Assembly: GCA_947454055.1 (NCBI GenBank)
Contig: CANGIS010000017.1
Coordinates: forward strand, 1 to 52,906
Reading direction: 5' to 3'
DNA length: 52,906 nt
Origin: Hyphomicrobiales bacterium
Lineage (GTDB): Bacteria; Pseudomonadota; Alphaproteobacteria; Rhizobiales; Beijerinckiaceae
Part shown: in pieces, positions 13,754 to 42,969 of the stretch
Layout: each line of letters begins with the position of its first letter
Numbering within the stretch: position 1 is the first letter of the stretch
Program-made: the position numbers and the translations under genes
The notes under the pieces: generated by a model
Seen by the model: only the letters and a program-made list of their open reading frames with translations
Database searches by the model: none
What the model was told of the DNA's origin: nothing

Positions 13754-13810
13754 TTCCGTTTGGAAGCGGATTCGGCTGACCTTTTCTTCGAACGGGAACT
13801 TGTTCTTCTG

Positions 13811-14284: not shown

Positions 14285-14288
14285 GCGC

Positions 14289-16377: not shown

Positions 16378-16407
16378 TCGACGATACTCACGCTCGGCAT
16401 AGGCTGT

Positions 16408-19341: not shown

Positions 19342-19356
19342 GGCTCGGGCTCTCTC

Positions 19357-22289: not shown

Positions 22290-22456
22290 CGCCGCACCTA
22301 CTCACGCCCGCCAAGCCAAATTTAGCATTTAATAACATCAATGCATCGCGACCATATTGATTGCGATGTGGTGAGATGCCCGCTAACAACATACCGTACA
22401 CCCATAGCGTGTATATAGCTTCGATGCCAGTGTTTGTTGTGTGTTTAAGGGATCCG

Positions 22457-24691: not shown

Positions 24692-24730
24692 GCCATCGAC
24701 GGCTTCTTTCGGGGTGCAAGCCCTGTTACG

Positions 24731-27467: not shown

Positions 27468-28856
27468 TCAGAAGTCGATCATGGCGTCGAGCCCAAATTC
27501 GGCGAGTGTCTGCAAGGTAACCACACGGAGCGTTTCAGGCGTGGTTGGTGTGGGCTCCAGCTGGTAGGCCTCGACACAGAGGGACACCATCTTGCCGAAG
27601 CAGGAGGCCACCACAACGAGGTGGCCGTGCGAACGCTCAAGGTCATGGCGTGTGACGTTGACATCCACGGCCCGGGTCATCACCCGACCACAGGGCGCGC
27701 TGTCGATATAGGCGAGCCCTTCCGGCAGCGTTCCAAGGTTGGAACAGCTCACCGGCAATTCGTCGGCATAGCGGAACAACCGATTCACAAGAGCCGTGGC
27801 GAAGGTACGCGGCATCCAGGCGATCGCCGGCAGGAGCAACGCCAGTGTATCGGTCTGCAACTCCTTCGTGCCGCGAAGCAGTGCCATCAGGGCCGCTTTG
27901 ACCGGCCGCAGATTTGTGGAGAGACCTTCGGGACTCAGGGTCATCGACCGGAATTCGATGGCCAATGCTCGGTCATCGTTCAGGCCGCGCCGCCTGTCGA
28001 TCGGCACAAGCAGGTTGATCGTTCCGTCTGAGGCACGACGGCGTCCCAGACGGGATGCAAGCGCCGCCACAAAGCTCGGCAGCAGCGTGTTCGCGTGGCC
28101 TCCGAGCCTTTGTGCACATGTATCCCAAGCCTGCGCTTCGATGGTCACGGCGACGGCCGGAAGGTCCACGACGGTTGGACGGTCGCTCCTTGTATCATCG
28201 GCCGGAATTGCTGGCTTCTTCAAGGGCCCGGCGGGGCTGCCCCCGCTCGTCGTTGCAATCCGGGCGAGGGCCGCAAGGGTGCGGGGAGCATCAACGAGGA
28301 TCTGCCATGCATCCGAAACGCAGCCAGCCAGCCATAAGCGTGCCCCTCGGGGCTGGTACGGGCTCGGGACGGCGATGCCGTTTGCCGCCGCTTCAATGGC
28401 AAGCAAGGCTCCCATGCCGTCGATCACCAGATGGGATCCCACGGTACTCACGGCGGTGCTGCCATCGTCGAACCTCTGCACGGACATTCGCCAAGCGGGT
28501 CCCTGAACGGGATCGATGGGTGCGCGTGCGCGTTGGTTGGCCCATGGCAGTAACTGCGATCGTGGCAGCACCGCGGGGCTGGTCTCGATCGGCAGGGCAG
28601 CGCCCGCAGGTTTCACCCAGCGCGGACGGCCAAAAGGAAAGGGGGACGGCTCGATCAGCCGGTTGAAGGACAGCGCAGCGAGACGCTCATTCGTCCTCAC
28701 CAGCGCGTCAATGTTCACGTCGCGGTCATAAAGCCAGAGGCATTGCATCAATTGGCTTCGACCGGTAGCCCTGAACAACTCATAGGCCAACTGGTCCAGC
28801 CACGCCAATCGGTGGCGCGCATGGGCAGGTGAACGGGGCGGGTCGATCTCAGCCAT
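27468..28856 (-). CDS. WS/DGAT-like acyltransferase (paralogue 1)
   Basis: From ATG 28856 the product has 462 residues of the condensation/acyl-CoA acyltransferase superfamily. The active-site motif HxxxDG is SHLVIDG, His142-Asp146. About 70 residues upstream is PFGRPRW and about 25 upstream DPVQGPAWRMSV, two motifs shared with the genes at 28849-30210 and 34448-35839. The length fits wax ester synthase/diacylglycerol acyltransferase-type enzymes. It overlaps the preceding paralogue by 8 bases and is the last of three - strand genes starting at 31628. Together with otsA-otsB and the PapA-like gene it suggests transfer of acyl chains to trehalose or an acyltrehalose. The acyl donor is unknown. 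Confidence 0.72.
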   Translation of the reverse strand: MAEIDPPRSPAHARHRLAWLDQLAYELFRATGRSQLMQCLWLYDRDVNIDALVRTNERLAALSFNRLIEPSPFPFGRPRWVKPAGAALPIETSPAVLPRSQLLPWANQRARAPIDPVQGPAWRMSVQRFDDGSTAVSTVGSHLVIDGMGALLAIEAAANGIAVPSPYQPRGARLWLAGCVSDAWQILVDAPRTLAALARIATTSGGSPAGPLKKPAIPADDTRSDRPTVVDLPAVAVTIEAQAWDTCAQRLGGHANTLLPSFVAALASRLGRRRASDGTINLLVPIDRRRGLNDDRALAIEFRSMTLSPEGLSTNLRPVKAALMALLRGTKELQTDTLALLLPAIAWMPRTFATALVNRLFRYADELPVSCSNLGTLPEGLAYIDSAPCGRVMTRAVDVNVTRHDLERSHGHLVVVASCFGKMVSLCVEAYQLEPTPTTPETLRVVTLQTLAEFGLDAMIDF

Positions 28857-30210
28857 CGAAGGACTCGCCGGCGAGGTCATAGGCAGCGAGCAACCGCTCG
28901 ACGATCGCACGAAGATGGCGAGGCTCGGTCACCACTCCGGGTTGGTATGCGACGAAATTGAGAAGCAGAAATCCGGGGATCAAACCCGAGTGGAGCGTAG
29001 CCACACCCTGACGCTCTTCAATCGCGTGTCTCGGCAGCTTACGGTCGATGCCCCGAAAACAAATCCGGTCGGCCGCAATGCCATCGATCATCAGCACATC
29101 GGCGGGCAAATCGCCCGAATGCGAGCAGGTGACCGGCAGATCAGCGAGCGCGCCAAGGGCCAGACGGCCGGCGGTCGAGAACGCGCGGCGGGGCACAAAG
29201 GGGACCAAGGGCATGAGTTTGGCAAGGGAGTCAGGCTCCCGCCGTGTTTTAAGCAGGGCCGCCTGCAGCCGTCTCTGTAATTGATGCAGGCGCCCGCGCG
29301 GTTCGTCGACCGGCACTTTGAAGGTCGCCAGCGAAACACGGTTTCCGCCGCTATCCGACAGTCCGTCGCGCTGATTGACCGGGAACAGCAAAGTCACATG
29401 GCCGTCACGGACACGACCCAGAGCCTCGGCGAATGCCGCGGTCACCGCCGCCAAAAGCGCGAGGCGGTTGGCTCCGAGGCTCGCGGCTCGCGCGTCCCAA
29501 TCCGAGATGGGAACGCGGATGAAAACCGACGGGAAAGCGACGGTCTGGTCGTTAGCCGTGATCGTGGCGGGTGAGGCCTTCGTCAATCGGGTTTGGCTGC
29601 GTGCGGCCCATACCGTCCGGATCAGTTCGGCAAGCGCCCGGAATGTTGTCGGCATGTCCTTCAGGATACGCAGGATTTCTTTGGATAAATTCCCGGCGAC
29701 ATCGACGGAAGGCCATCGCTCGCCCCTTACCGCTTCGCCAATGGCAAGGGTTGCCGCCATGCCGTCCGCGATGCAATGGGACACAACGAGTGAGGCCACG
29801 GTGGAGCCGTCGGTAAGCGGCTGAACGGTAAAGTTCCAGGCTGGCCCGAGGGTAGGGTCTAAGGGCAGTTCTACCTGCGCATCGGCCCAACTCTGCAGGG
29901 CCACGGGAGAAATCGGGTCGGCTGCAACCGCAAGGACGGGCGAGGGACGCGGCGCGCTGGACCATTGATGCCGCCCGAAAGGAAGCTGCGCCGGCCGGAT
30001 GAGCCGCGCCAGCCGGCCATGCGCCAGGTGGCCATAAAATCGTGTCAGTGCGTCGAGGTCCACCGGCCGGCGGAAGCGCCATAGCACCTGAATGACGGCA
30101 TGCTGTCCGCCTGCCTGATGTGCGAGGTACATACCATGATCGGCGAAAGTAAGGAAAGGCGTCGGAATGTTCGAAAGCTGGGCGGAAACAGGTTTGGCTT
30201 GGGTCATCAT
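28849..30210 (-). CDS. WS/DGAT-like acyltransferase (paralogue 2)
   Basis: The 453-residue product starts at ATG 30210 in an ATGA overlap with the PapA-like gene. HxxxDG is SHCIADG with His145 and Asp149. LPFGRHQW and DPTLGPAWNF are the shared paralogue motifs, and DGSTVASLVVSH leads into the active site. A later segment with LLFPVNQRDG matches the second-half core of WS/DGAT enzymes. It has no signal peptide, so it should work on the cytoplasmic side of the membrane. Three paralogues in one cluster suggest several acylation positions or chain types on one acceptor. Confidence 0.72.
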   Translation of the reverse strand: MMTQAKPVSAQLSNIPTPFLTFADHGMYLAHQAGGQHAVIQVLWRFRRPVDLDALTRFYGHLAHGRLARLIRPAQLPFGRHQWSSAPRPSPVLAVAADPISPVALQSWADAQVELPLDPTLGPAWNFTVQPLTDGSTVASLVVSHCIADGMAATLAIGEAVRGERWPSVDVAGNLSKEILRILKDMPTTFRALAELIRTVWAARSQTRLTKASPATITANDQTVAFPSVFIRVPISDWDARAASLGANRLALLAAVTAAFAEALGRVRDGHVTLLFPVNQRDGLSDSGGNRVSLATFKVPVDEPRGRLHQLQRRLQAALLKTRREPDSLAKLMPLVPFVPRRAFSTAGRLALGALADLPVTCSHSGDLPADVLMIDGIAADRICFRGIDRKLPRHAIEERQGVATLHSGLIPGFLLLNFVAYQPGVVTEPRHLRAIVERLLAAYDLAGESFDG

Positions 30211-31628
30211 AGGCCGCCGATATCGGCTTGCAACCGCATCCATGAGTCGGCCACTTGGCGGCACGTGTTCCGAAGCGCTTCGACATAGCGTTGCATCGAC
30301 GCCCTGGCCGTGATGTTGGCCGGATAGGCGGCCGCCAGCGTGAGCCCCTTTTGAGTTCGGAAGAACCAGAGGGAAACCTGCGCGGCCATGCCTTGGCTGA
30401 TATAGATCCGCCCGTCTACCTTTTGCCAGACCCGCTCAATGTGGGGACTAAGCGGCGGACGGCTCATATCGTTAAAGGAAAGCATGACGCCCCCCGTCGC
30501 GACCGGCCTAATCGTCGGCAATTCTGCCGCCAGTTCAAGCACGCGCTCGATCGGCACATTGGCCATGCCCAATCGACCGTCGAAAACGCGCTGAGCCGTA
30601 CCAGCCAGTTCGGGAAACGGATGATTGGCAATGTCGAGATCAATCGGCACCACACCCATGCACCAACCCGCCGTTCTGAAGGCTTGCGGTGATTTTCGTG
30701 TCGCCATCGGGGTGACAACACGATAGCGGCTGCTTCCCGCCAGTTCGCGTTCGGTCAGAGCCGCGCAGGCCAGAAGACCGCCGATCACCCGCGCGCCAGA
30801 CGCCTGGCACGCCGACTCGAAAGCGGCCATGCCGACCGCATCAAGGACATCCAAATCCACATATTCGGCGAGACAACGATCCTCCAGCACACCGAGTGGC
30901 AGCGGGAAAGGAGGCATCCGCCCCTCGTTGCGGTGCAGGAACTCGACCCACCCGGTCACTTCCGGATCCGCAAGCGTCATCGTCGCTGCCCGCTTCCGCT
31001 GGCTTGAGGCGTAATTCACATAGTGCCCTGCCGGGCCAAGCCTTAGCGGTGGTGCGCCATCGAGCGAGGCGCGATACGCTTCATGAATCTCTTTCATCAT
31101 CAGCGGAATGACCGACGCATCTCCGTGCAGGTGGTCGATACTCGCAAAGCAAGTGAACCCCGCCGCGCGTTGCAGGATCCCAAAGCGGAAGCAATCCCAC
31201 TCAAACGGTGCAGGGATTGCCATGGCGTGATGCCGCCAAGCCTCGGCGCTCACCTCGCCGAGCGTCGTGTGCTCCATCTGGATGGTTGCCGGATCCGTGA
31301 GCACATGGCGCATGATGGCATCGCCCCGCTCTTCAAACCAGCTGTGATAGGTGTCGTGCCTGCGCAAATGCGCAGTTACAACCTGGTTCATGGTTGCGAG
31401 GTCACAAAAGCCGGGTTCCTCCCACACAACAATAAGCAGCCGCGCCATTTCTTCATGCCGCTGCTCGCAAGCGCGGAAGGCGCGCAGATGCTGCTCCTGC
31501 TCATAGCTCGGAGGCACGGGCGATAAAGGTGCGTTTTGAGCGCTTGCGAGGGATGCCGTTGACGGGTGCCAATAAGTCAGCCTTGCCGGAGGGCCTGCCC
31601 AGTCATGCAAAGGACGCAGATCAGCCAT
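30207..31628 (-). CDS. PapA-like acyltransferase (condensation fold)
   Basis: From ATG 31628, with GGAG nine bases upstream, the product has 473 residues, the size of mycobacterial PapA1-PapA3. It has the HxxxD site in SIDHLHGDAS (His166-Asp170) and the stretch HLRRHDTYHSWFE near residues 88-99, which resembles mycobacterial Pap proteins that acylate trehalose. A hydrophobic C-terminal half carries GWCMGVVPIDL and VMLSFNDMS. It is the first gene of the - strand acyltransferase trio and is divergent from otsA. The likely reaction is transfer of an acyl group from a CoA thioester or carrier to trehalose. That is inference from family and neighbours. Confidence 0.68.
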   Translation of the reverse strand: MADLRPLHDWAGPPARLTYWHPSTASLASAQNAPLSPVPPSYEQEQHLRAFRACEQRHEEMARLLIVVWEEPGFCDLATMNQVVTAHLRRHDTYHSWFEERGDAIMRHVLTDPATIQMEHTTLGEVSAEAWRHHAMAIPAPFEWDCFRFGILQRAAGFTCFASIDHLHGDASVIPLMMKEIHEAYRASLDGAPPLRLGPAGHYVNYASSQRKRAATMTLADPEVTGWVEFLHRNEGRMPPFPLPLGVLEDRCLAEYVDLDVLDAVGMAAFESACQASGARVIGGLLACAALTERELAGSSRYRVVTPMATRKSPQAFRTAGWCMGVVPIDLDIANHPFPELAGTAQRVFDGRLGMANVPIERVLELAAELPTIRPVATGGVMLSFNDMSRPPLSPHIERVWQKVDGRIYISQGMAAQVSLWFFRTQKGLTLAAAYPANITARASMQRYVEALRNTCRQVADSWMRLQADIGGL

Positions 31629-32151
31629 CGATGCAAGCTCCTGCAGGCGCACCAGCAAACATCCCGCGACCGACGTTGGAGCGGCCCGGTATGCCGTGCA
31701 CCCCTATCGGCGCGATGTGGGTTAAAACGTTGGTAATGTGCAGCGCCGGCGATCTGGAAACTGCCGATCCGATATTTTCCGGCTGTTGATAGCCCATACT
31801 CACACCAACCATCGCAGTCACGATTTGACCGCCTTTCCGATACTCAGACTCGATTTGGCCTTAGTACGCGACTTTCCTTCGAAGCGGCAAGGGGCGTGCG
31901 TTTTCAAGCGCCACAGGGCTCAATTTGAGTACAGTAATCCGCTCAATTAATTGAATTCCTTGCCACTTTGAACAAGTGTCGAGTACTATGCGCGCATTCA
32001 AAATGAAATAAGGCTCTCGGCTGGTGCAAAATATAGGTCGTTTCATGATCGACGATTGTTTTTTTCGATCAGAAATCAGCACGGGAGCAAAATCGGCTTA
32101 CCAGATTGCCAGTATACGATGCCTGTCTGGCGGGCATAGGACGGCGGCGGT
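31629..32151. promoter_or_regulatory. Divergent intergenic region between the acyltransferase trio and otsA
   Basis: This stretch of 523 bases separates two divergent operons and holds no convincing gene. Its otsA-side half (31840-32110) is clearly AT-richer than its surroundings and includes the palindromic CAATTAATTG near 31945. The divergent promoters and any shared operator should lie here. Short frames on both strands lack start signals and protein-like composition. Confidence 0.4.
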
Positions 32152-33639
32152 ATGCTAATTCCAAATTCTACTTCAATGGTCGATGATGGCTACTTCGATT
32201 CCTCCCCATTGCGGAACGATGGGCCGTCTACCCACGCGACCAGCACCTTTATCGTTGCCAACCGGCTGCCGGTCGAGTGGCAGGCGGTTTCGGGTTGGCG
32301 GCCTTCGCCTGGCGGGCTTGTCAGTGCGCTCGAACCTGCGCTGAAGAATCTGAATGCCGTTTGGGTCGGGTGGCGTGGCAGCCCTGCGCCCGAAGACAGC
32401 CGCGGGCCCCGGCCAACGCGTCCACCGCGCACCGACAACATCGCCATCATAGAAATTCCGATGACAAAGCGGGAGGTCGTCGATTTTTATGACGGTGTGT
32501 GCAACACCGCATTCTGGCCGCTCTACCATGAGGTTGGCATTGCTCCGGTGTTTTGCGACGAAGAGTTCGAGGTCTACCGCCGGATCAACCAGCGGTTTGC
32601 AGACTGTGTGGCCCGCAGTGCGCCCGCCGGAGCGCCCGTGTGGGTCCACGACTATCAGCTGCAGCTCGTTCCTGCCCTCCTGCGCGAGACCAGGCCTGAC
32701 CTACGCATCGGCTTTTTTCTGCATGTGCCGTTTCCCTCGCCTGAGGAGTTCGAAACGCTGCCGTGGAACGAGAACGTTTTGGATGGGCTGCTTGGCGCCG
32801 ATCTTATCGGCTTCCAAACCGCATCTTCTGCGGAGCGGTTCATGGCGGTGGCTTGCCTACACGCGTCGGTGCGCCGCGAAGGCAACAGCCTGCTCGTGAG
32901 CGAGCCGACTGGCACGCGACGCGTGACGGTGGGAGTGTTTCCCATAGGGCCGGACTCAGAGCGGTTCTCCAGTCTCGCTGCCTCACCAGCGGCGCAGGAA
33001 TCGGCGGCGAGGATTCGTGCCGATTTCGACGCTCCGGAATTGATTCTGCTGGGTGTGGACAGGCTCGACTACACAAAGGGTATCGACGTTCGCATCCGGG
33101 CGGTGGCGGATCTGCTCAAAAGCGACGAGTTCAAAGGACGCGACATCCAGTTCATTCAGGTGGCGATGCCAAGCCGCAGCGACCTTACGGCCTATCAGCA
33201 CCTTCGCGCTACGGTGGAAGAGACACTGCTGTCGGCCAACGCTGAACTTGCCGCGCTTGGACTTCGGCCAATCCACTATGTTTATGAAGCGGTGCCAACC
33301 GAGGAAGTCGTAGCGCTCTATGTGGCCGCCGACATCATGCTTGTTACCTCGCTCGCCGACGGTATGAATCTGGTCAGCAAAGAGTTCGTCGCCTGCCGCC
33401 AAGCGGGGGATGGTGGTCTGGTGCTCAGCAGGACGACGGGTGCCGCGGCCCAATTGCATGACGCTTGGCTGGTTGAACCTGGGGATGTCGCTGATTTGAC
33501 GCGCGGCATGGGTGAGGCCATTCGTGCAGAAGTCGACGAGACACGGGGCCGTATGGAGCGGCTACGTCAGGCCGTGTTCACCGCTGATGCTCGCCATTGG
33601 GCCGAGGCCTTCCTCGCGCGCCTGAACAAAGCCCGATGA
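32152..33639 (+). CDS. otsA: Trehalose-6-phosphate synthase
   Basis: OtsA joins UDP-glucose and glucose 6-phosphate to trehalose 6-phosphate. The 495-residue GT20 protein has VANRLPVEW near residue 35, WVHDYQLQLVP, FLHVPFPSPE, GVDRLDYTKGI with donor-binding Arg and Lys, and DGMNLVSKEF. The first 30 residues are an extension without motif; ATG 32176 is an alternative start. It begins an operon with otsB, a WS/DGAT-like acyltransferase and a membrane protein gene. Being directly divergent from a PapA-like acyltransferase points to trehalose as a lipid building block as well as a stress solute. Confidence 0.93.
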   Translation: MLIPNSTSMVDDGYFDSSPLRNDGPSTHATSTFIVANRLPVEWQAVSGWRPSPGGLVSALEPALKNLNAVWVGWRGSPAPEDSRGPRPTRPPRTDNIAIIEIPMTKREVVDFYDGVCNTAFWPLYHEVGIAPVFCDEEFEVYRRINQRFADCVARSAPAGAPVWVHDYQLQLVPALLRETRPDLRIGFFLHVPFPSPEEFETLPWNENVLDGLLGADLIGFQTASSAERFMAVACLHASVRREGNSLLVSEPTGTRRVTVGVFPIGPDSERFSSLAASPAAQESAARIRADFDAPELILLGVDRLDYTKGIDVRIRAVADLLKSDEFKGRDIQFIQVAMPSRSDLTAYQHLRATVEETLLSANAELAALGLRPIHYVYEAVPTEEVVALYVAADIMLVTSLADGMNLVSKEFVACRQAGDGGLVLSRTTGAAAQLHDAWLVEPGDVADLTRGMGEAIRAEVDETRGRMERLRQAVFTADARHWAEAFLARLNKAR

Positions 33640-34451
33640 GCACCCTTCTGCCGGAAGCCCTCGTCCAACGATTGATCTCGCTTGGAGCGGCGCGGCACCT
33701 TCTGGTGTGCTCCGACTATGACGGAACACTCGCGCCGCTCGCACCGCGTCCGGAGCAGGCGCAGCTTTTGCCGGGCGCGTTCGATCTCCTGCACTCGCTC
33801 GCAGGCCTGCCGCATACACGCTTGGCCATCATTTCCGGACGCTCGCTCGATAATCTTCGCATTCACTCGGGTCTTGACGGACCTGTCATGCTGGTGGGTT
33901 CCCATGGTGCCGAATTGCCGGGGCACGACACAGTCGGAAGGACTCCGGAAGGGCAAGCACGGCTCGACGCACTCGAGCGAGAGCTGATACAATTCTGCGC
34001 GCCGGCACCGGGGGCTTGGCTCGAACGCAAACCGCTGGGCATCGCCGTGCATGTGCGGCAGGCCACCCGTTCGGATGCGGAGCACGTCCTCGCCAAGGTG
34101 CGTGGCCATCTGTCCGGATGGCCTGAACTGCATGTGAGAGAGGGCAAAGCCGTCATCGAACTGGCTCTCTTGCGCACCAGCAAAGGTGATGCCGTGCGGT
34201 GGCTTCGTGACAACTGGGGCACCGACCCAGAGGTGCTCTATCTTGGTGACGATGTGACGGACGAGGCTGCGTTTGAAGCGCTGGGACCAAGGGATGTCGG
34301 CGTCAAAGTCGGCGCGGCTCCGTCAAAAGCCGAATATCGCGTGGCGTCGGAAGAGTTGGCGCTTGATGTCCTCACCTTTATTGGCAGGCATCGGGCTGCA
34401 CTCACCAATCATCCCCTTGCACAGCAACGGTTAAGGGGAGCCTTGGCGTGA
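33636..34451 (+). CDS. otsB: Trehalose-6-phosphate phosphatase
   Basis: OtsB releases free trehalose. The start at ATG 33636 overlaps the otsA stop as ATGA; the frame also extends back to a TTG at 33597. The 271-residue HAD-family phosphatase has CSDYDGT with the nucleophile Asp27 and acid Asp29, SGRSLDNL, VGSHGAEL and the metal-binding YLGDDVTDEAAF. The length is that of bacterial OtsB. Coupled translation with OtsA and with the next acyltransferase gene suggests a direct flow from trehalose synthesis to acylation. Confidence 0.93.
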   Translation: MSTLLPEALVQRLISLGAARHLLVCSDYDGTLAPLAPRPEQAQLLPGAFDLLHSLAGLPHTRLAIISGRSLDNLRIHSGLDGPVMLVGSHGAELPGHDTVGRTPEGQARLDALERELIQFCAPAPGAWLERKPLGIAVHVRQATRSDAEHVLAKVRGHLSGWPELHVREGKAVIELALLRTSKGDAVRWLRDNWGTDPEVLYLGDDVTDEAAFEALGPRDVGVKVGAAPSKAEYRVASEELALDVLTFIGRHRAALTNHPLAQQRLRGALA

Positions 34452-35839
34452 GCGGGGCGTCTGCCGATCGACGGCGCGGACACCGCAGCCAAGCGAGCGA
34501 AGCTGATGCAGGTTCGGACAACGTCCTGTGTTACGCCGACCAAGGCTCGTTCGTCGGCCTGCGCGCGCTTGGGCGAGGGCCCGTATTGCACTTCACATGG
34601 ATCTATTCGCACCCGCTTGATGAAGCCAAGGTCGATCAGTTCAACGTGAGCCTCGCGCAAAGCCTGCTCGGACGCGTGCTCAGGCGTTCCCCCTTGCCAT
34701 GGGGACGGCACCGCTGGGTGGCGAGCCCTGTTCCCGTCCCCGTGAAATGGTTTCGGGATCCGATTCCGCTCGAGAGTCTGCCCGAATGGCGTAGTTCGCT
34801 GGTCGAGCTGCCTATCGACCCCGAGTATGGTCCGGGCTGGCGCCTCGCCGTTCAGGTACTGGACGATGGCAGCTGCGCGCTTTCGATCCTCGTGTCGCAT
34901 ACGATCGCGGACGGACAGGCCGCCATTCAGGCCATGGTCGACGCGGTGGCGGGCCGACCTTTGGACCCCGGATTTCCGGCACCATCGTGGCGATGGTCTC
35001 CGGTGCTGCTGGCGCGCGATGCTGTGGAGAGTGCGCGCGCCTTACCGGAAGTGGTGCGTGCCTTGGCGACGCTGCTGCGGCGGCCACGCACAAAAGGGGC
35101 GGATGCCATACCGCACTCCACGTCACGACTCCTTAACGGTCAGCATGACGCACCTGAGCCCACGGTAGACGTTCCGCTCGTACATGTGGTTCTCGACGAA
35201 GCGGCATGCGAAGCGCGGGCAGCGGATCTGGGTGTGGCGAGCAATACGCTGCTTGCGGCCTTTGCGACACGGCTCGCGTTCCGGCTCGGGCGCGTGGACG
35301 CTTCCGGCCGCGTGAAGCTGGTGCTGCCGGTCAGCGACCGCCAGCCGGGGGACCGGCGAGGCAACGCGCTGCGGGCCATCACCGTCATGGCCGACCCCGA
35401 CGCTTACCGCACCAATCTGCGCCCGTTTCAACGCGAGCTCAGGACTGCCCTGACCTCACTGCTCCGGTGGGGGGATGACTTGACCCCGCTCGCCCCTCTT
35501 CTTCCCTATGTGCCCTTGTGGCTGGCGCGTCATTTGGAACGGCTTGTGCTCGGAGCCGACCTGCCCGTCGGATGCTCGCTGGTTGGCGAAATGCCTGCGG
35601 AATTGAGTCGTCCCTGCGGCGAGGCATCGATGTTACAAATTTCCGGACTGGAGCGTTATACGGCCTCGGTCCTTGAACAGCTGGGAGGCCGTCTGTATCT
35701 CGTAGGCTATCGCATTCGGGGAAGAATACTGGTCAGCGTATCGGGCTACGCGCCTGACCACGTTACAACACGAACGGCGTTGGCATCCTCGGTTGGCGAC
35801 GCGCTTGCCGATCTGCTTCTCGATGGGACGGTCAGCTAG
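34448..35839 (+). CDS. WS/DGAT-like acyltransferase (paralogue 3)
   Basis: The 463-residue product starts at GTG 34448 in a GTGA overlap with otsB. HxxxDG is SHTIADG with His151 and Asp155. PLPWGRHRW and DPEYGPGWRLAV match the two motifs of the paralogues on the other side of otsA. The first 25 residues are polar and variable. LVLPVSDRQPG corresponds to the second-half core segment. Since it is translationally tied to otsB, its acceptor is very probably trehalose or a trehalose ester. The three paralogues probably arose by duplication inside this cluster, with one copy moved to the opposite strand. Confidence 0.75.
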   Translation: MSGASADRRRGHRSQASEADAGSDNVLCYADQGSFVGLRALGRGPVLHFTWIYSHPLDEAKVDQFNVSLAQSLLGRVLRRSPLPWGRHRWVASPVPVPVKWFRDPIPLESLPEWRSSLVELPIDPEYGPGWRLAVQVLDDGSCALSILVSHTIADGQAAIQAMVDAVAGRPLDPGFPAPSWRWSPVLLARDAVESARALPEVVRALATLLRRPRTKGADAIPHSTSRLLNGQHDAPEPTVDVPLVHVVLDEAACEARAADLGVASNTLLAAFATRLAFRLGRVDASGRVKLVLPVSDRQPGDRRGNALRAITVMADPDAYRTNLRPFQRELRTALTSLLRWGDDLTPLAPLLPYVPLWLARHLERLVLGADLPVGCSLVGEMPAELSRPCGEASMLQISGLERYTASVLEQLGGRLYLVGYRIRGRILVSVSGYAPDHVTTRTALASSVGDALADLLLDGTVS

Positions 35840-35931
35840 TGACGGATGGTCAACAATCCGGGCCCCTGCGGCACCCGAATGCCATTCAGCAGTCAACAGA
35901 ACACGCTCTTCCGCGGGAGAATGAGGAACCC

Positions 35932-37161
35932 ATGAAACCGATCGATCAGGACAGCACCATTCGCCGGAATTACACGATGCTCGGGTTGCTGTTAGCGGTT
36001 TGGGTACTCATTCTGGTTGCGCTAGCCATCTTCGTCGTCCCGGATATTTACTGGTATTCCTATTATTCGGTTGACTATGCCACGGGCTTTGTCAGGCGTG
36101 GACTGGCAGGACAACTCGTCGGGCTGTTTCCGCACGAGCAATACTTCTCCGCCCTGCAGGTCCTGCGCTGGTTGCCGACGGCCTCTTTGGCGTTCGGACT
36201 CGCACTTCTCGCCAGAGCCGTCGCTTCGGGAGCGGGGCACTCTGAACGGCGCGTTCTGCTTGCGCTGCTTACGCCAATGCTTCCCTTCGGCTTCGCGTAT
36301 GGGCTCTACTCGGTGCGTCCTGACCTGTTTGGCGCTACTGCGCTCATTGTTTACACCGTTGCAATCCAGTCGGCCGGCAGTGACCGCAGAGTTGTGATCG
36401 CAAGTGCCGTATTCGGTACGCTCACGGCCGTATTGACCTTAATGCATGAAGCCATTCCATTTGTCTTTGGGCTTGGCGTTATGGTCTCGCTGACCGTCTT
36501 CGCGCGGGCTCGAAGTGAGACGGCTTTGCGGATCAGCGCGCTCCTCGCTCTCGGTCCCGGAATGCTGGCCGCGGCTGCCATTGTGCTTCTGGGTCGGCGC
36601 GATATTTCAGGGCAACTGTGCCTGCGGATTCCTCATGGTCCGGTAAACGACCCGCTATTGGCTCATCCGAGCTTCGATCAAGTATTGGCCGGGTTTCGTT
36701 TCGATGTTGATTATCATGATTGGGTATGCCGCAATATTTTGCCTTTGTTTGACCAAAACATTGGCGATGCAACCCTCTTCGTTGCTCATATCGGTGCGAA
36801 GGCGCTCCTCGGCTCCACGATATTGGGGGTTGCCTTGTTGGCGCTCACCCTTCAGGCGACGAGCCATTTTTCCGGCGTGCCCTTCCGTCGGATGTTTTCG
36901 CTCTTACGCGCACGCAGCGGATGGATAGGGATCGGCCTCGGACTATTCCTGCCAATCTTCCTGACGGGAGCCGACTGGACACGCTGGTGGATGATGATCA
37001 CCTTCGATATCGGGGTTTCCTTCGTTCTGTTCGCCAGCGGAGAACAAGAAGCAGCCCAACCTTTAAAATTTAGCATGCGGACCATCTGCTGGATCGGAGC
37101 GCTTCTGGTGGCCGGACTGTTGAGCGCCATTCCCGGCTTTGGCATCCCTGCTCCGACGTAA
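35932..37161 (+). CDS. Polytopic membrane protein of unknown function
   Basis: I start this at ATG 35932, preceded by GAGGA; a GTG at 35839 overlapping the previous stop would add 31 polar residues. The 409-residue product has about ten membrane spans. Between the first two spans lies DIYWYSYYSVDYATGFVRRGLAG, a loop with an Asp and the pattern GFVRRGL seen in families of uncharacterised membrane proteins. The layout of a large first loop after one span with an acidic residue would fit a GT-C fold glycosyltransferase or a lipid flippase, but no decisive motif is present. As the last gene of the otsA operon it probably modifies or translocates the trehalose product. It converges with the exporter operon. 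Confidence 0.55.
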   Translation: MKPIDQDSTIRRNYTMLGLLLAVWVLILVALAIFVVPDIYWYSYYSVDYATGFVRRGLAGQLVGLFPHEQYFSALQVLRWLPTASLAFGLALLARAVASGAGHSERRVLLALLTPMLPFGFAYGLYSVRPDLFGATALIVYTVAIQSAGSDRRVVIASAVFGTLTAVLTLMHEAIPFVFGLGVMVSLTVFARARSETALRISALLALGPGMLAAAAIVLLGRRDISGQLCLRIPHGPVNDPLLAHPSFDQVLAGFRFDVDYHDWVCRNILPLFDQNIGDATLFVAHIGAKALLGSTILGVALLALTLQATSHFSGVPFRRMFSLLRARSGWIGIGLGLFLPIFLTGADWTRWWMMITFDIGVSFVLFASGEQEAAQPLKFSMRTICWIGALLVAGLLSAIPGFGIPAPT

Positions 37162-37190
37162 GCAAACGCCGCTCGTCGTCTGGCGGGGCG

Positions 37191-38345
37191 TCAGATGGCT
37201 CTTAGCGCATCGACGATTTTCATGCGGGCGGCTTGCACGGCCGGAAGGAAGCCGCCGAGAAAGCCCATGCCGAGCGCAAAAAGAAGCGATTGCAACACAA
37301 TCCTTGGCGTGAGGACGAAGGGGAAAGCGAGTTCGGAGAAGGACGTCCAGTTGAGTGTCGTTATTTTCACCTGCATCATGAACGATGCGAGTGTCAGACC
37401 GGCCGCCCAGCCGGCCAAGCCGAGAAACATTGCTTCTGCCAAAAATGCCGCGAGGATACTTAATTGCCGGAATCCAAGGGCGCGCAGAACCCCTATTTCC
37501 CTTTTTCGCATGGCGACAGCCGCGTACATGGTGATGGTTGCTCCGATGACGGCGGCCAGCGAGAAAAGCGTCGAGAGCGTGATGCCGAGTACTTTGATTA
37601 AGCCGGAAAGCGTGTTCGACTGCTCCTCGTAAAAGCGACGTTCGCGCTTCGCTTCGATGGTCAAGCGAGGATCCGACTCAAGTCGAGCCTTAAGCTTAGA
37701 GAATGCCTCCGGATCCGCCAGCCTGACCACCACCGAGGAGAAGACCTCCCGACGGAAAGCTTGCATGAACTGCTCGCTGTCGCCCCATATTTCGGAGTCA
37801 AAGCCGCTTCCGCCCGCGTCAAAGCGGCCGACGACCTGCCACTCCCGCTGGGCAAACCGGATTTGCGATCCGATCTCGATGCCTTCGAAACGCCCTCCTA
37901 TGACGATTTCGCTCGATCCGGGAACGAACATGCGTCCGACGGTTAACTTTACCTGAGGCCTCAGGGCGAGAACTCTAGGTCCGACACCGCGGGTCGTGAT
38001 GCTTCTTGTTCGTGAGCGGTCGGACCCGGGCAGGGCGATCATCACGACGACTTCCTTCGAAACCAGGGGTATACCTTCTTGCCCGATCATAAGCTCGGGT
38101 TCGCCCTCGATGATCGAAGCCTGTCGACGATCGATGACGCTTTGGATCTCCACTTCCGCCGAGCGGCGTAGAAAGATGACGTTATTTTCTTCGCCCGTTG
38201 ATGCCATTGTTTTCTCAAGACCGGTGTCGAGCATGAGAACGGCGGCATAGACGAACACAACCAGTGCCATGCCCCCAGCCGTGAGCGCGTTCGTCAATTT
38301 TCGAACCCGCAAATTGCGCAAACTGTAGGTGAACAGCAAAGGCAT
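37191..38345 (-). CDS. ABC transporter permease, FtsX/MacB type (second permease)
   Basis: This 384-residue protein has one N-terminal span (NALTAGGMALVVFVYAAVLML), a periplasmic domain of about 210 residues, and three C-terminal spans carrying the FtsX domain, with REIGVLRALGFR as the ATPase-contact helix. It has the MacB/LolC topology. It starts 2 bases after the first permease gene and is clearly different from it in sequence, so the exporter would be a heterodimer. It is the last gene of the four-gene operon that starts at 41463. Confidence 0.85.
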   Translation of the reverse strand: MPLLFTYSLRNLRVRKLTNALTAGGMALVVFVYAAVLMLDTGLEKTMASTGEENNVIFLRRSAEVEIQSVIDRRQASIIEGEPELMIGQEGIPLVSKEVVVMIALPGSDRSRTRSITTRGVGPRVLALRPQVKLTVGRMFVPGSSEIVIGGRFEGIEIGSQIRFAQREWQVVGRFDAGGSGFDSEIWGDSEQFMQAFRREVFSSVVVRLADPEAFSKLKARLESDPRLTIEAKRERRFYEEQSNTLSGLIKVLGITLSTLFSLAAVIGATITMYAAVAMRKREIGVLRALGFRQLSILAAFLAEAMFLGLAGWAAGLTLASFMMQVKITTLNWTSFSELAFPFVLTPRIVLQSLLFALGMGFLGGFLPAVQAARMKIVDALRAI

Positions 38346-38347
38346 TG

Positions 38348-39508
38348 TCAGCCCACTGCCCGAAGGCCGTCGACAATGCGGATATTGGCCGCACGATGCA
38401 TCGGGACCAGCGTCGACAGCAGGCCGACAGCCAAGGATGCAAACAGCTGCAGGGCGATTATTTTTGTATCGACGATTAGCGGTGGAAGCGGTGTTTCGGT
38501 AAGTGCGACAAGACGCGAGGCGACGGGCGGTGTCAGCGCGATTGCGATCGTGCCACCGATAAGTGCGATCATGACGGATTCACCCAGGATCAATCGTGCG
38601 ATATAGCCGGGGCCAAAGCCCAGGGCTTTCAGCGTTGCGTATTCCCCGAGACGCTCGCGCGCCGTCATTGCCATGGTGTTGGCCATGACAGCAAGGATGA
38701 TGCCGATGACGACGACGGACACGATGCGGATCGAGACAAGGATCGATTCGGTCTGCTTCATGAATCCGATTTGGAAGGCTCGCTCGGTCTCGGTGAGTGT
38801 ATTCGTGGTTGAATTACGGAAGAGAGCGTCGATGGTCTGGCTGACCTCGTTGACCCGATCGATGTCGGCAACATCGACAACGAAGAAGCCGACCTGGTCG
38901 GCCTGCGCCTTTGAGCGGGCGCGAAGCGTCTCGTTCAGATAGTCCCAGTGGAAAAACAACTGCGACGTATCGGCTTTGGGGTCGCGGGCATCGAAAATGC
39001 CCTCGATCACAAACTCCCAATCGCCAGGGTAGATGGTTCCGCGCAACTGAATTACATCGCCAGGCTTAAATCCGAAACGGTTGGCAAGTTTGCGTCCCAC
39101 GATTGCGCCACGGCGGTCGCTCATAAAAGCGCGACGCGTTTCGTCCGAAAGCACGAATTCGGGGTACATATCGAAATGGCTCCCGGCGTCGATGGCAATT
39201 TGAACAAAGAAATTCTTGTTTTCTTTGTATATGCCGCCAAAAATGTTCATGTAGGTCACGCCCCGCACCCCGTCGATGGCACGGATGCTCTTATCATAAG
39301 AGTGCGGAAGAGGCATGGTGAACGCTATGGCATTGCGCGTGACAAGACGCGAAGGCACTGCGTTATCGATGCCTGCATACCATGCGCTAATGATGGTCTG
39401 AAGCACGCCGAAGGCAAGGATAGCAACAACGAGCCCCGCAAGGGTTAGCCATGTGCGGAGGCGTTGCCGCCAAGCGTTGCGCGCCACGAGTTTGAACCAT
39501 TGGATCAT
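38348..39508 (-). CDS. ABC transporter permease, FtsX/MacB type (first permease)
   Basis: This 386-residue protein has the same four-span layout: a first span after WRQRLRTWLTLAGLVV, a periplasmic domain with GRKLANRFGFKPGDVIQLRG (a MacB-type periplasmic core motif), and a C-terminal FtsX domain with MTARERLGEYATLKALGFG. It lies 9 bases after the ATPase gene. Such permeases extract substrates from the membrane rather than the cytosol, which suits a glycolipid cargo. The cargo assignment is inference from the neighbouring trehalose acylation genes. Confidence 0.85.
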   Translation of the reverse strand: MIQWFKLVARNAWRQRLRTWLTLAGLVVAILAFGVLQTIISAWYAGIDNAVPSRLVTRNAIAFTMPLPHSYDKSIRAIDGVRGVTYMNIFGGIYKENKNFFVQIAIDAGSHFDMYPEFVLSDETRRAFMSDRRGAIVGRKLANRFGFKPGDVIQLRGTIYPGDWEFVIEGIFDARDPKADTSQLFFHWDYLNETLRARSKAQADQVGFFVVDVADIDRVNEVSQTIDALFRNSTTNTLTETERAFQIGFMKQTESILVSIRIVSVVVIGIILAVMANTMAMTARERLGEYATLKALGFGPGYIARLILGESVMIALIGGTIAIALTPPVASRLVALTETPLPPLIVDTKIIALQLFASLAVGLLSTLVPMHRAANIRIVDGLRAVG

Positions 39509-39517
39509 GTTCAGAAA

Positions 39518-40249
39518 TTACTCACGGCGTAACTCCACGCGCTCGGCAAGCTCGCCCTTCTCCAGATGCATGATGGCCTTGGCATGTTCTGCCGCGCGTC
39601 GGTCATGGGTCACCATGATGATCGTAGTGCCCATCTCGCGGTTGAGCCGCTGCATGATGGTGAGCACTTCTTCTGCGGATTGCCGATCGAGATCGCCGGT
39701 TGGCTCGTCGGCGACCAGCAGCGTGGGGTCGGTGACAATTGCCCGCGCGATGGCCACACGCTGCTGCTGGCCACCCGAGAGCTCCGACGGGAAGTGCTTG
39801 ATGCGATCGCTGAGGCCGACGAGTTCAAGGGCGAGGAGCGCATGGTCCCGGCGTTCACGCCGCCCCAGATGGGTGAGGGTGAGGGGCAATTCGACATTCT
39901 CCAGCGCTGTGAGCACCGGCATGAGATTGTAGAACTGAAAGATGAACCCGACATTCGCCGCGCGCCAGTCAGCCAGCGAGGCTTCGGGGAGACGGGTGAT
40001 ATCGTTGCCGCCAACGACGATTGAGCCGCTATCAGGATTGTCGATGCCCGCGATCAGATTGAGGAGCGTCGACTTCCCCGACCCTGATGGGCCCATGAGC
40101 GCGAGGAATTCTCCCCGCCGGATGTCAAAGCCGATGTCCGAAAGGACCGGGACGACCTCTTTACCACGCCGATAGGCTTTGCTGACGCCACGAAGCGCGA
40201 TCAGCACATCGTCCCCGGAGTGGGCGTCAGGAGAACGTTGCGAGGTCAC
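39518..40249 (-). CDS. ABC transporter ATP-binding protein (MacB/LolD family)
   Basis: This 243-residue ATPase has Walker A GPSGSGKS at residues 53-60, a Q-loop in GFIFQFYNLMPVLTALENVELPL (typical of the MacB/LolD group), the signature LSGGQQQR, Walker B LLVADEPTGDLD and the switch His in VTHD. It overlaps the adaptor gene by ATGA. It powers the two FtsX permeases encoded just downstream. Confidence 0.92.
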   Translation of the reverse strand: MTSQRSPDAHSGDDVLIALRGVSKAYRRGKEVVPVLSDIGFDIRRGEFLALMGPSGSGKSTLLNLIAGIDNPDSGSIVVGGNDITRLPEASLADWRAANVGFIFQFYNLMPVLTALENVELPLTLTHLGRRERRDHALLALELVGLSDRIKHFPSELSGGQQQRVAIARAIVTDPTLLVADEPTGDLDRQSAEEVLTIMQRLNREMGTTIIMVTHDRRAAEHAKAIMHLEKGELAERVELRRE

Positions 40250-41463
40250 TTTGCATCCTTGGTCACGGCGCGCCCGTCGACGAGGGTATCGGACGCCCTG
40301 ATCACGACACGGGTGCCGACCTCGAGACCATGCACAACAACTTGCTCGCCTACTTTCGCTCCGACCTCGACGCGCCGCAGACGAGCCTTACCCTCGTCGA
40401 TCATCCAGACAGACTTGCCATCGCCCGCTTCAACGATAGCCGATGCCGGTACAACGAGAATTGGCTTATGCTCATCCCCTTCCACAGGCCGCTTCAGGAA
40501 TGCCACTTTGGCGCTCATGTCCGGAAGCATTTTCGGGTCGCGCTGCATGAAACGAACCTTGACGAGGACCGACGCCTTTGCCCGATCTACCGTTGGTACC
40601 ATCAGGCTTACCTGACCATCGAAGCGTAGGCCGGGCATGGCGTCGAGCTGGATTTCAACCGGCTGGCCTACCTGGATGTCCATGAATGACGACTCCGTCA
40701 CGGACGCCTCCACTTCGAGCGTGTCCATATCGGCGATGGTGACCACCGCTCCCTTGGTATCGACGGCTTGCGAAAAGGGAGTGATCGTATCGCCGACATT
40801 GGCATTCCGCGTAATGACAACGCCGTCGAAGGGCGCACGGATGATGGTCTGGTCCAGGGCGACTTCGGCGACCCGGAGATTGGCCTGAGCAACCGCAACA
40901 GCCGCTTCAAGGCCCGCCACTGCCGCCCGCGCCTTGCCAAGGCGTCCCACAGCACTATCGTGCGCCGACTCGCTGACGAGCTTCTTTTCGATGAGAGCCT
41001 CTGAACGATTGAAGGCGAGTTCGGCCTCCGAGAGTTCAGCCTGTCCCTGACCGACATTGGCTTTGGCGAGCAGCACATTGGCGGCTGCCTGGTCCCGTAA
41101 TGCTTGCGTGTCTCCGTTTTCCAGTCGCGCGATGACATCGCCGATATGGACATCGCTTCCTTCGAGGACGCCGAGCCATTCGAGCCGACCCGTTGCTTTG
41201 GATGCAACAGAAGCCTTGCGCTGTGCTACAACATAGCCTGTTGCGTTAAGAACGGTGAGCAGCTGCGACGGATAGACGTTCGACACAACCACGGTCTCGA
41301 CGGTCAATGGCGTGAACTGCTGCCACGTCCAAATCGAAATTCCGATGCCGACGAGAGAGGCCGCGATGAGTATCGACGGGCGAACGCCGTGTGGCCCCGC
41401 GTGACGTCGCGTGTTCGCGGTACGGGCGATCGATAGTGCGGACAGATCCGATGGCGTCTTCAC
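40246..41463 (-). CDS. Periplasmic adaptor (membrane fusion) protein of the exporter
   Basis: This 405-residue protein has one N-terminal span (PSILIAASLVGIGISIW), a lipoyl/barrel-sandwich domain split around a helical hairpin (about residues 105-205, rich in Ala, Glu and Leu), and IIRAPFDGVVITRNANVGD as the return strand. A beta-barrel and a membrane-proximal domain follow. It is of the MacA/HlyD type and is the first gene of the exporter operon. No TolC-like gene is in the window, so an outer-membrane partner, if used, is encoded elsewhere. Confidence 0.88.
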   Translation of the reverse strand: MKTPSDLSALSIARTANTRRHAGPHGVRPSILIAASLVGIGISIWTWQQFTPLTVETVVVSNVYPSQLLTVLNATGYVVAQRKASVASKATGRLEWLGVLEGSDVHIGDVIARLENGDTQALRDQAAANVLLAKANVGQGQAELSEAELAFNRSEALIEKKLVSESAHDSAVGRLGKARAAVAGLEAAVAVAQANLRVAEVALDQTIIRAPFDGVVITRNANVGDTITPFSQAVDTKGAVVTIADMDTLEVEASVTESSFMDIQVGQPVEIQLDAMPGLRFDGQVSLMVPTVDRAKASVLVKVRFMQRDPKMLPDMSAKVAFLKRPVEGDEHKPILVVPASAIVEAGDGKSVWMIDEGKARLRRVEVGAKVGEQVVVHGLEVGTRVVIRASDTLVDGRAVTKDAK

Positions 41464-41643: not shown

Positions 41644-42528
41644 TCAGACGGGACCGGGCCATAGTGCAAATGCGCAGGCAACCACCCAAAGCGCTACCGT
41701 GAGCAACAATTGCCAGTCGGCCAACAAAACATCCGTCGGTGACTCGCCGTTATCATCCGTTTCTACAACGAACCAATAGCGAAATAGCCCAAACAGTACC
41801 AACGGAACAGTGATGACTAAATCAGGTTTCGCAGAAATTACGAACATACTGTAGAAAATTAACGTGCTGGTTGCTGCCATTTCTACATAACGCTCGATCA
41901 ATATTAACGAGTATTTTTCCAATACTTTGCGACCGTCGGTACCGCTTTGTCGCAATTCTTGTCTGCGCTTTATGGCTGCAAGATATAAAGCGAGACAGAG
42001 CGTCGTGATGAACATCCAAGAGGACAAAGGCACATCGAGCGCGACGGCACCTGCATAGACCCGCAGCACAAAGCCGATCGCGATCGTAAAAATATCCATC
42101 ACGGGCTGGTGTTTGAGCACAAAGGTATAGGCGAGGTTCAGCAACAGGTAGCCGATAATAACCGTTACCACTTTAGGTGTTACGAACCATCCGCCGATGA
42201 TGACGGCATAGAGGCAAAATAAAACGAAAAACGCAGCGGGAATTGATACGGTGCCGGCGGCCAGCGGCCGGTCTTTGGATTTTTTAATATGACGGCGATC
42301 ACTCTCAATGTCGTATAGATCATTGCTGATATAGGTTGCCGACGACGCAACACAGAACAGCAGGACCGCCAACAGGCTATTGATGACGGCGTGATACTCC
42401 AAGAACGCTTTTGAAAAGACCAAGGGTGCCAAAACAAAGCCGTTTTTAACCCAATGCTTCGGCCTCATCAGCTTGATTAAGCCAGGCATCTGGGCTAGCG
42501 AAAAGTGGCCTGGCCCCTTGTTTTCCAT
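41644..42528 (-). CDS. UbiA-family decaprenyl-phosphate phosphoribosyltransferase (DPPR synthase)
   Basis: The enzyme would transfer 5-phosphoribose from PRPP to decaprenyl phosphate, the first membrane step of decaprenylphosphoryl-arabinose synthesis. From ATG 42528 the product has 294 residues and about eight spans. It shows LMRPKHWVKNGFVLAPLVFS, the first Asp motif NDLYDIESDRRH followed by KSKDRPLAAG, and a second motif region with YLAAIKRRQEL. These fit the Rv3806c-type subgroup. A longer start at 42663 would run through the divergent gtrA-type gene and is rejected. The dprE1-dprE2 genes alongside support the assignment. Confidence 0.82.
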   Translation of the reverse strand: MENKGPGHFSLAQMPGLIKLMRPKHWVKNGFVLAPLVFSKAFLEYHAVINSLLAVLLFCVASSATYISNDLYDIESDRRHIKKSKDRPLAAGTVSIPAAFFVLFCLYAVIIGGWFVTPKVVTVIIGYLLLNLAYTFVLKHQPVMDIFTIAIGFVLRVYAGAVALDVPLSSWMFITTLCLALYLAAIKRRQELRQSGTDGRKVLEKYSLILIERYVEMAATSTLIFYSMFVISAKPDLVITVPLVLFGLFRYWFVVETDDNGESPTDVLLADWQLLLTVALWVVACAFALWPGPV

Positions 42529-42555
42529 TAATTCGAACCTTGGTTTTGATACAGA

Positions 42556-42969
42556 ATGATTGCGTCTAAGCAGCTGGCTTTCAGCTATGCGATTTTTGCG
42601 ATCATCGCAACCGTCGCAAATATTGGCGCTCAGGACATGGTTATCCATGTTTATCATGGGCAATTCGATATATTGGCATCAATGATTGTAGGCACAGGAG
42701 CCGGTATTATTGTGAAATATGTACTCGATAAGCGATATATATTTCAATTTCGTCCGCGAAATCTCGTTCACGGTACTTGGACGTTCGTCCTCTATACCGT
42801 TATGGGGCTTGCCACGACCATCGTTTTCTGGGGCTTCGAGTTTGTTTCGTATCACCTATTCGAATCCAACGAAATGCGCTATCTGGGCGGTGTTATCGGC
42901 TTGGCGGTCGGCTATCCGATGAAATATCAACTCGATAAGTTTTATGTTTTTCCCAAGGAGACCGCATGA
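42556..42969 (+). CDS. GtrA-family membrane protein
   Basis: This 137-residue protein has four spans, with FSYAIFAIIATVANIG, GTGAGIIVKYVLDKRYIF and VGYPMKYQLDKFYVF. The repeated KY-LDK-(Y/F)-F pattern is the GtrA signature. In mycobacteria the GtrA member Rv3789 is encoded directly before dprE1-dprE2 and has been proposed to translocate or organise decaprenylphosphoryl-arabinose; the gene order here is the same. The stop overlaps the dprE1 start as ATGA. It starts only 27 bases from the divergent UbiA-type gene. Confidence 0.85.
   Translation: MIASKQLAFSYAIFAIIATVANIGAQDMVIHVYHGQFDILASMIVGTGAGIIVKYVLDKRYIFQFRPRNLVHGTWTFVLYTVMGLATTIVFWGFEFVSYHLFESNEMRYLGGVIGLAVGYPMKYQLDKFYVFPKETA

Follow-up and report, generated by a model that had tools for sequence, protein, structure and literature searches.

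The window studied here is a stretch of 52,906 nucleotides from a Hyphomicrobiales bacterium, and positions 27468 to 41463 of it hold a cluster in which the trehalose genes otsA and otsB are accompanied by acyltransferase and exporter genes. On the strength of its sequence, we consider it probable, albeit with appreciable doubt, that the genes of this cluster form a small pathway whose product is a trehalose with several acyl chains, destined for export. A first-pass annotation of the DNA had reported otsA-otsB together with four HxxxD acyltransferases, a polytopic membrane protein (MP) and an exporter of the MacA/ABC/FtsX/FtsX type, and this gene content is borne out by the open reading frames (ORFs), all of which are present at the coordinates given below, and by searches of Pfam and NCBIfam. 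The minus strand carries a gene for a PapA-type acyltransferase with the motif HLHGD (30207–31658; PF00668 at 2e-16) and those for its companions AT2 (28849–30210; a weak match, 1.5e-6, to the wax ester synthase/diacylglycerol acyltransferase (WS/DGAT) family TIGR02946) and AT1 (27468–28910). AT2 likely starts with the ATG at 30210, which overlaps the papA-like stop codon, the listed ORF reaching to 30264. This trio diverges from otsA, from which it is separated by an intergenic region of 493 bp (31659–32151). A relic of a polyketide synthase (PKS) gene was looked for in this gap and rejected, similarity to PKS, GT1-type glycosyltransferases (GT1), FadD or MmpL never reaching an E below 0.2. 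The plus strand then encodes OtsA, a trehalose-6-phosphate synthase (32152–33639; PF00982 at E 1e-114), OtsB, a trehalose-6-phosphate phosphatase with a DYDGTL motif (33636–34451; PF02358 at E 6e-31), the third acyltransferase AT3 (34448–35839) and MP (35839–37161). Convergent with these, on the minus strand, lie the exporter genes: two MacB-type half permeases with FtsX/MacB_PCD matches, FtsX1 (37191–38345) and FtsX2 (38348–39508), an ABC ATPase of the LolD/DevA/MacB type (39518–40249; ABC_tran) and a periplasmic adaptor of the MacA/RND type (40246–41463; HlyD/RND_mfp).

Several of these genes overlap. The DNA confirms the overlaps that had been claimed, namely GTGA between otsB and AT3 and ATGA between the papA-like gene and AT2 in the divergent trio, and it contains three more: ATGA at otsA/otsB, TAGTG at AT3/MP and GTGA at adaptor/ABC. 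Of a MacAB/DevBCA-type tripartite exporter, an adaptor, a LolD/MacB-type ATPase and MacB_PCD/FtsX permeases are present at the general family level. In NCBIfam the ATPase scores 240 bits for LolD, 217 for DevA and 214 for MacB, and the adaptor 128 bits for MacA, all under the equivalog cut-offs; those for DevB and DevC are not reached either. A Pfam scan of 40 ORFs of the window turned up no outer-membrane channel.

Acyltransferases of mycobacterial affinity

At E ≤ 0.01 the PapA-like protein has a single match in the PDB, PapA2 (6aef; E 5e-108, 365 bits), a mycobacterial protein annotated there as trehalose-2-sulfate acyltransferase. The similarity is full length, residues 14–473 aligning with PapA2 4–460. 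PapA2 H166, the catalytic histidine according to PMC6996325, aligns with the histidine of HLHGD, and in our PapA alignment an HxxxD motif occupies the same site in the window protein, in 11 of 11 rows from Bradyrhizobium (counting G643) and in 23 of 23 from Actinobacteria. The enzyme is accordingly predicted to acylate trehalose. Its Bradyrhizobium orthologues are 66–71% identical and the copies in actinobacterial clusters 34–48%, and the 11 congeners of the window genome have no match. PapA-like genes on Sinorhizobium and Cupriavidus plasmids are distant (22–31%), and the AT family is absent from the two plasmid stretches examined (L026, L027). On the former, from a bean-nodule plasmid of Sinorhizobium fredii, the distant PapA-like gene is grouped with genes for an oxidoreductase, an aminotransferase, a glycosyltransferase and an RND exporter (11965–24719), which may be another lipid cluster.

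AT1, AT2 and AT3 belong to one family, with 30–35% mutual identity, that lacks a Pfam model of its own: none of the three matches a Pfam family at E ≤ 0.001. The histidine and aspartate of HxxxD are kept in all 28 members of a hand-picked alignment (A7), the three window copies included. WS_DGAT_cat is weakly similar to 13 of these 28 at E ≤ 0.01 (best 5.7e-7); window AT3 scores 18.2 bits against a curated cut-off of 23.6 for PF03007, and AT2 27.4 bits against 309.95 for TIGR02946. The only PDB match of the AT alignments is PapA5, at E 6e-4 for alignment A2 and 1.6e-3 for A7. A relation to the glycopeptidolipid acetyltransferases Atf1 and Atf2 was considered and rejected, because these have ten predicted transmembrane domains (PMC10400925). 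Among 297 other genomes of the bacterial family there is no strong match to the AT family, and two weak ones (best E 2.3e-8).

How widely is this gene set distributed? We scanned the best 80 of 135 relatives that were found with two short peptide patterns, so that locus counts are lower bounds. Ten of the 80 loci come from Bradyrhizobium or Bradyrhizobiaceae (61–66% identity) and 70 from Mycobacterium and its kin or from actinobacterial metagenome-assembled genomes (MAGs; 30–43%), three of these being titled Bifidobacterium, perhaps mislabelled bins. Bradyrhizobium is a member of the Hyphomicrobiales within Alphaproteobacteria, in agreement with the class to which the first-pass annotation had assigned the system. 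All ten Bradyrhizobium loci contain PapA, three ATs, FtsX1, FtsX2, the ABC ATPase and the adaptor. One further genome of the window's order, G643, which by inference belongs to Bradyrhizobium, has orthologues of the same eight genes at 65–81% together with PKS and GT1. Because PapA, AT1–3 and the four exporter genes recur together in the ten loci and in G643, a chance grouping can be excluded. A long PKS gene (5.4–5.7 kb) is found in nine of the ten loci. The tenth (L035, Bradyrhizobium sp. strain AT1) retains a 201-base PKS piece at about 5458–5665 next to a full set of PapA, AT and exporter genes; like the window, it seems able to do without PKS. Identity between the PKS of Bradyrhizobium and that of mycobacteria is about 51%, and for GT1 it is 54–59% in the 10 actinobacterial PapA-AT loci that have this gene.

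On the actinobacterial side, 46 of the 70 loci are 18 kb or longer, absences there being due in part to contig ends. In 25 of the 70, PapA lies within 1 kb of an AT gene, and of these 25 loci 22 have PKS, 14 FadD and 11 MmpL (10 of them with PKS). A second mycobacterial layout (L043, L044, L048, L049, L051, L206) combines one or two GT1 genes, MmpL, a divergent FadD and an AT gene. In addition, a plasmid of Tsukamurella tyrosinosolvens (L025, 10363–19128) carries a gene of the AT family close to one for a PapA-like protein, a glycosyltransferase gene and two genes annotated as acyltransferases.

Our trees are quick IQ-TREE runs, midpoint-rooted and with SH-aLRT support only; the AT tree (92 rows) covers five of the ten Bradyrhizobium loci, 34 of the 70 actinobacterial loci having been taken out manually and matches shorter than 350 aa discarded. 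In it, window AT1, AT2 and AT3 each have their Bradyrhizobium counterparts as sister group (support 100 in every case; 66–71% identity for the AT1 orthologues), and each of these pairs lies inside a separate mycobacterial group (support 99, 99 and 97). The tree positions of AT1–AT3 agree with the mycobacterial gene order, and the nearest relative in the tree, albeit a long-branched one, is an actinobacterial MAG contig (L071) that has the same order PapA-AT2-AT1-AT3. One transfer of the whole acyltransferase set would be the simplest account of this pattern. The first-pass annotation had instead proposed a route parallel to that of mycobacteria, and this part of its interpretation does not stand: the acyltransferases have their homologues in mycobacterial PKS-PapA-(FadD)-(MmpL) loci, and the three clades formed by window and Bradyrhizobium nest within mycobacterial ones. 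The chemistry therefore looks shared by horizontal transfer, with only the exporter exchanged, from MmpL to a MacAB-type pump.

Trehalose as the predicted acceptor

OtsA exceeds the Pfam GT20 cut-off and scores 450.6 bits against 564.85 for the OtsA equivalog TIGR02400; OtsB exceeds the TIGR00685 cut-off, and the catalytic motifs of both proteins are intact. The window genome has a single OtsA, the one in the cluster; 11 of 11 congeners have none, and 10 of 13 other sampled members of the family have one. Of 17 actinobacterial carrier genomes, 16 have an OtsA, to which this protein is 42–45% identical (382–407 bits), and the seventeenth has none; in all six Bradyrhizobium carriers the identity is 31–36%. 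Among 298 other Pseudomonadota genomes, 81 have matches, the best at 39% and 278 bits, so that of the OtsA proteins compared the mycobacterial ones are its closest relatives. In a tree that took in 84 of 85 sequences, window OtsA joins 16 mycobacterial OtsA proteins on a long branch with support 97, other Actinobacteria not being in this tree. Its best PDB match is 5jij, from M. thermoresistibile.

A remnant of the same gene is found in Bradyrhizobium cajani (locus L032, about 9852–9968), where a 38-residue N-terminal piece of OtsA lies some 30 bases before AT3. Its best match is window OtsA (60.5%, E 1.4e-10) and the next 16 are all mycobacterial, whereas the first match to a Bradyrhizobium OtsA appears only at E 1.1. 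The linkage of otsA to AT3 is therefore seen in two lineages, and otsA was probably once part of the B. cajani locus. The other nine Bradyrhizobium loci have no otsA piece at E ≤ 1e-5, two stretches round the G643 locus have no intact otsAB, and among the matches listed from 265 Bradyrhizobium genomes there is no intact OtsA of the window type (best 36%).

Several observations weigh against trehalose as the acceptor, or against a simple mycobacterial descent of the whole set. Intact otsAB is found in none of the 80 related loci. GT1 occurs in six of the ten Bradyrhizobium loci (only 438 bases of it in L033) and in 10 of the 25 actinobacterial PapA-AT loci, and the acceptor there could therefore be another sugar lipid. 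The window itself lacks similarity to PKS, FadD, GT1 and MmpL. That no solved structure comes closer to the PapA-like protein than PapA2 is no proof of its reaction, PapA1, PapA3 and PapA4 being absent from the PDB matches. Of the acceptor-side residues that docking named in PapA2 (P171, T307, T324 and S384; PMC6996325), three are changed in the window protein (A181, P317 and M334) and one is kept (S394), as read by eye from the alignment; we therefore call the protein PapA-type rather than PapA2. Finally, in the PapA tree, built without matches under 330 aa, alphaproteobacterial PapAs lie beside the actinobacterial ones and not inside them, with only distant plasmid copies outside them, and the direction of transfer therefore rests on AT1–3 and OtsA.

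These points could be accommodated if the product were an acylated glycolipid built on something other than trehalose, for instance a lipopeptide or a lipid bearing a glucosyl or rhamnosyl group, and if otsAB were an unrelated stress pair that happens to lie beside AT3. The GT1 genes of the relatives, the absence of intact otsAB from their loci and the altered docking residues speak for this possibility. We nevertheless think it unlikely, though it deserves to be taken seriously, given the GTGA overlap of otsB with AT3, the absence of OtsA from the congeners, the remnant before AT3 in B. cajani, a trehalose acyltransferase as the nearest solved PapA relative and the lack of GT1 in the window. 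By the standard of the first-pass annotation, its reading would fall if homologues of the acyltransferases lay mostly away from otsAB, and taken literally this is the case in the 80 loci. We judge proximity to be a weak test, however, because an OtsA is encoded somewhere in the genome of 22 of the 23 carriers that were searched and because an otsA remnant persists in one of the ten Bradyrhizobium loci. An acyltrehalose pathway with an FtsX-type exporter in an alphaproteobacterium thus remains the best reading, because PapA2 is the sole solved relative, otsB overlaps an acyltransferase gene, the single OtsA of the genome lies in the cluster and the exporter is co-conserved.

The membrane protein and the flanks of the cluster

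MP matches no known family. It has no sequence relative in Pfam or the PDB, and no match to a glycosyltransferase or GT-C family. Homologues (35–52%) are found in 6 of the 17 actinobacterial carriers and in none of the six Bradyrhizobium carriers; the copies of M. neoaurum and M. litorale are 50–52% identical, and 397 other Pseudomonadota genomes yield one weak match, the sole homologue outside mycobacteria in the genomes searched. In four loci (L047, L055, L056, L206) the MP gene lies inside the AT cluster, in L206 between MmpL and FadD. At the membrane, the acylated sugar may be the substrate of MP, which would then be a flippase or a sugar-adding enzyme.

The proposed extent of the cluster holds up to 41463, but further genes of potential relevance adjoin beyond it, between 41644 and 45020. 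They encode a UbiA prenyltransferase similar to decaprenyl-phosphate phosphoribosyltransferase (41644–42663, minus strand; 8j8j at E 5e-37), a FAD oxidase similar to DprE1 (42966–44267, plus strand; 4aut at E 3.7e-71) and, directly after it, a short-chain dehydrogenase (44268–45020, plus strand) whose assignment as DprE2-like is based on its family (adh_short at 2e-26) and position only. Conceivably, the final product is a larger, lipooligosaccharide-like molecule, in which MP adds to the acyltrehalose a pentose that UbiA, DprE1 and DprE2 provide on polyprenyl phosphate. The polytopic nature and mycobacterial affinity of MP would fit this idea, as would the location of the UbiA and DprE1-like genes beside the exporter and the finding that, among 12 genomes of the genus, only this one has a strong DprE1 match. 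Against it stand the lower G+C content of the UbiA-DprE genes (0.50, compared with 0.59–0.63 for the cluster), their occurrence as a complete or partial group in six further genomes of this order, on stretches without the AT cluster (L198–L203; the window DprE1 is 63% identical to the G017 copy), their absence from all ten Bradyrhizobium loci and the lack of a glycosyltransferase family match for MP; the 70 actinobacterial loci contain one weak DprE1 match only. We thus hold such a molecule to be improbable, and would rate just as low the full form of the idea, a lipooligosaccharide mimic in which a GT-C-like MP and a pump to the outer membrane give an alphaproteobacterium a mycobacterium-like surface glycolipid. 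That MP receives a pentosyl donor from the UbiA-DprE genes has a low probability in our view; they might also adjoin by chance.

The contig is genuine and the cluster an island within it: the left flank is native to the genus, but all 11 congeners lack the acyltransferases and OtsA. To the left, a type II secretion operon (15358–24691) is syntenic in the congeners G009 and G010, at 34–80% amino-acid identity (69–80% for the ATPase, F, G and the secretin), a HupE block (34–55%) recurs inverted in G010, and the flanking DNA matches, in part, all 11 congeners. Contamination was rejected on these grounds. A phage or plasmid origin likewise found no support: there is no tRNA and no convincing flanking repeat, and none of 72,556 plasmid records has 80% of AT3 in one place. 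An Rfam search of the window returned no match.

Elsewhere in the window, a protein with a match to a SopA-like catalytic domain (48497–50338, plus strand; 6e-6) and, not far from it, a small protein that weakly matches CesT-type chaperones (46525–47004, minus strand) are possibly a secreted effector and its chaperone. A protein-kinase-like domain (PF00069, 2.4e-11) is encoded at 50909–52645 (minus strand), a protein with two aldehyde dehydrogenase stretches at 5751–8147 (minus strand), and a phosphoadenylylsulfate (PAPS) reductase followed by a GTPase-adenylylsulfate (APS) kinase fusion, for sulfate activation, at 11034–13753 (plus strand).

A model for synthesis and export

How might such a cluster build and export its product? 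In the pathway that we infer, trehalose would be made by OtsA and OtsB, in keeping with their family function, and the PapA-type enzyme, by analogy with PapA2, would attach a first acyl chain to one of its hydroxyl groups. AT1–AT3 might then add more chains from acyl-CoA or acyl-ACP, as suggested by their motif, their co-conservation and their weak similarity to WS/DGAT enzymes and PapA5. Because the window contains no PKS, FadD or MmpL, it is probable that ordinary fatty acids serve as the chains, or that genes elsewhere provide them. MmpL10 is required for diacyltrehalose to reach the mycobacterial surface after its synthesis by PapA3 in the cytosol (PMC4183827), MmpL12 is needed for mycobacterial lipooligosaccharide (PMC12507525), and heterocyst glycolipids of Anabaena are exported by DevBCA, a MacB-type tripartite pump that works with a TolC homologue (PMC5985334). 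With these precedents in mind, we envision cytosolic acylation followed by export, whereby the MacA/ABC/FtsX/FtsX pump would take the glycolipid towards the outer membrane, in the role played by MmpL in mycobacteria and by DevBCA-TolC in Anabaena. The acyltransferase set would have come from a mycobacterium-like actinobacterium, or from a common source with it, and would have been joined to an exporter of the Gram-negative kind before the lineages of the window and of Bradyrhizobium split or passed the set between them.

Alternatively, the cluster may be a leftover of horizontal transfer, silent or in decay, that makes no product. The missing PKS, FadD and glycosyltransferase genes of its relatives could be taken as signs of decay, but the ORFs are full length, their catalytic motifs are intact and their overlaps are tight, and we regard this alternative as highly improbable.

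Mycobacteria and related bacteria are marked out by their acylated trehaloses, and we consider the window system to be a variant of this kind, the first-pass interpretation being right in outline. Among the papers listed from the CC-licensed PMC literature, judged by titles and the starts of abstracts, we found none on acyltrehalose genes in Bradyrhizobium or other Alphaproteobacteria. If the proposed pathway is correct, hallmark mycobacterial lipid chemistry would reach a distant group that includes root-nodule bacteria, and one may ask whether the plants that host some Bradyrhizobium are exposed to lipids of the mycobacterial type. An acyltransferase family for which Pfam has no model would gain a function, and there would be a tractable non-mycobacterial system for the building and moving of polyacyl trehaloses, the set being common to mycobacteria, Bradyrhizobium and a relative with a small genome.

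Comparison with known systems

At the level of single proteins, AT1–AT3 can be compared with the wax ester synthase/diacylglycerol acyltransferases (PF03007, TIGR02946), with which they share HxxxD and weak similarity, although the window proteins that were tested fall below the curated cut-offs. The exporter has its counterparts in DevBCA-HgdD (TolC) and MacAB-TolC, which likewise combine an adaptor, an ABC ATPase and a MacB/FtsX permease; the former, moreover, exports a glycolipid from a Gram-negative cell (PMC5985334). The window differs in having two separate FtsX half permeases and no outer-membrane channel gene in the cluster.

At the level of the locus, the nearest system is the Bradyrhizobium arrangement (PKS)-PapA-AT2-AT1-AT3 / FtsX-FtsX-ABC-MFP (MFP being the adaptor), which has eight orthologues at 61–83% and the same pump. 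It differs from the window in that PKS and GT1 are common, intact otsAB and MP are missing and the trio is in the other orientation relative to AT3. More distant are mycobacterial loci of the type PKS-PapA-AT-AT-(FadD)-(MP)-AT-(GT1)-(MmpL), as in L040, L047, L055, L058 and others, with homologous PapA (34–48%), AT1–3 (30–43%) and, in some, MP (38–50%). Unlike the window, they have PKS and often MmpL, and neither otsAB nor a MacAB-type pump of the window kind. By gene order, our guess is that they correspond to the M. smegmatis lipooligosaccharide island MSMEG_4727–4737.

Finally, the loci for diacyl- and polyacyltrehalose (DAT/PAT; Pks3/4, PapA3, FadD21, MmpL10 and Chp2; PMC4183827) and for sulfolipid-1 (SL-1; PapA2, PapA1, Chp1 and MmpL8; PMC6996325) follow a similar logic, in that a PapA-type enzyme, further acyl chains and a dedicated exporter come together as they do here. 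Compared with both, the window dispenses with PKS, FadD and MmpL, assigns the extra chains to three HxxxD enzymes, carries otsAB inside the cluster and uses a MacAB-type pump.

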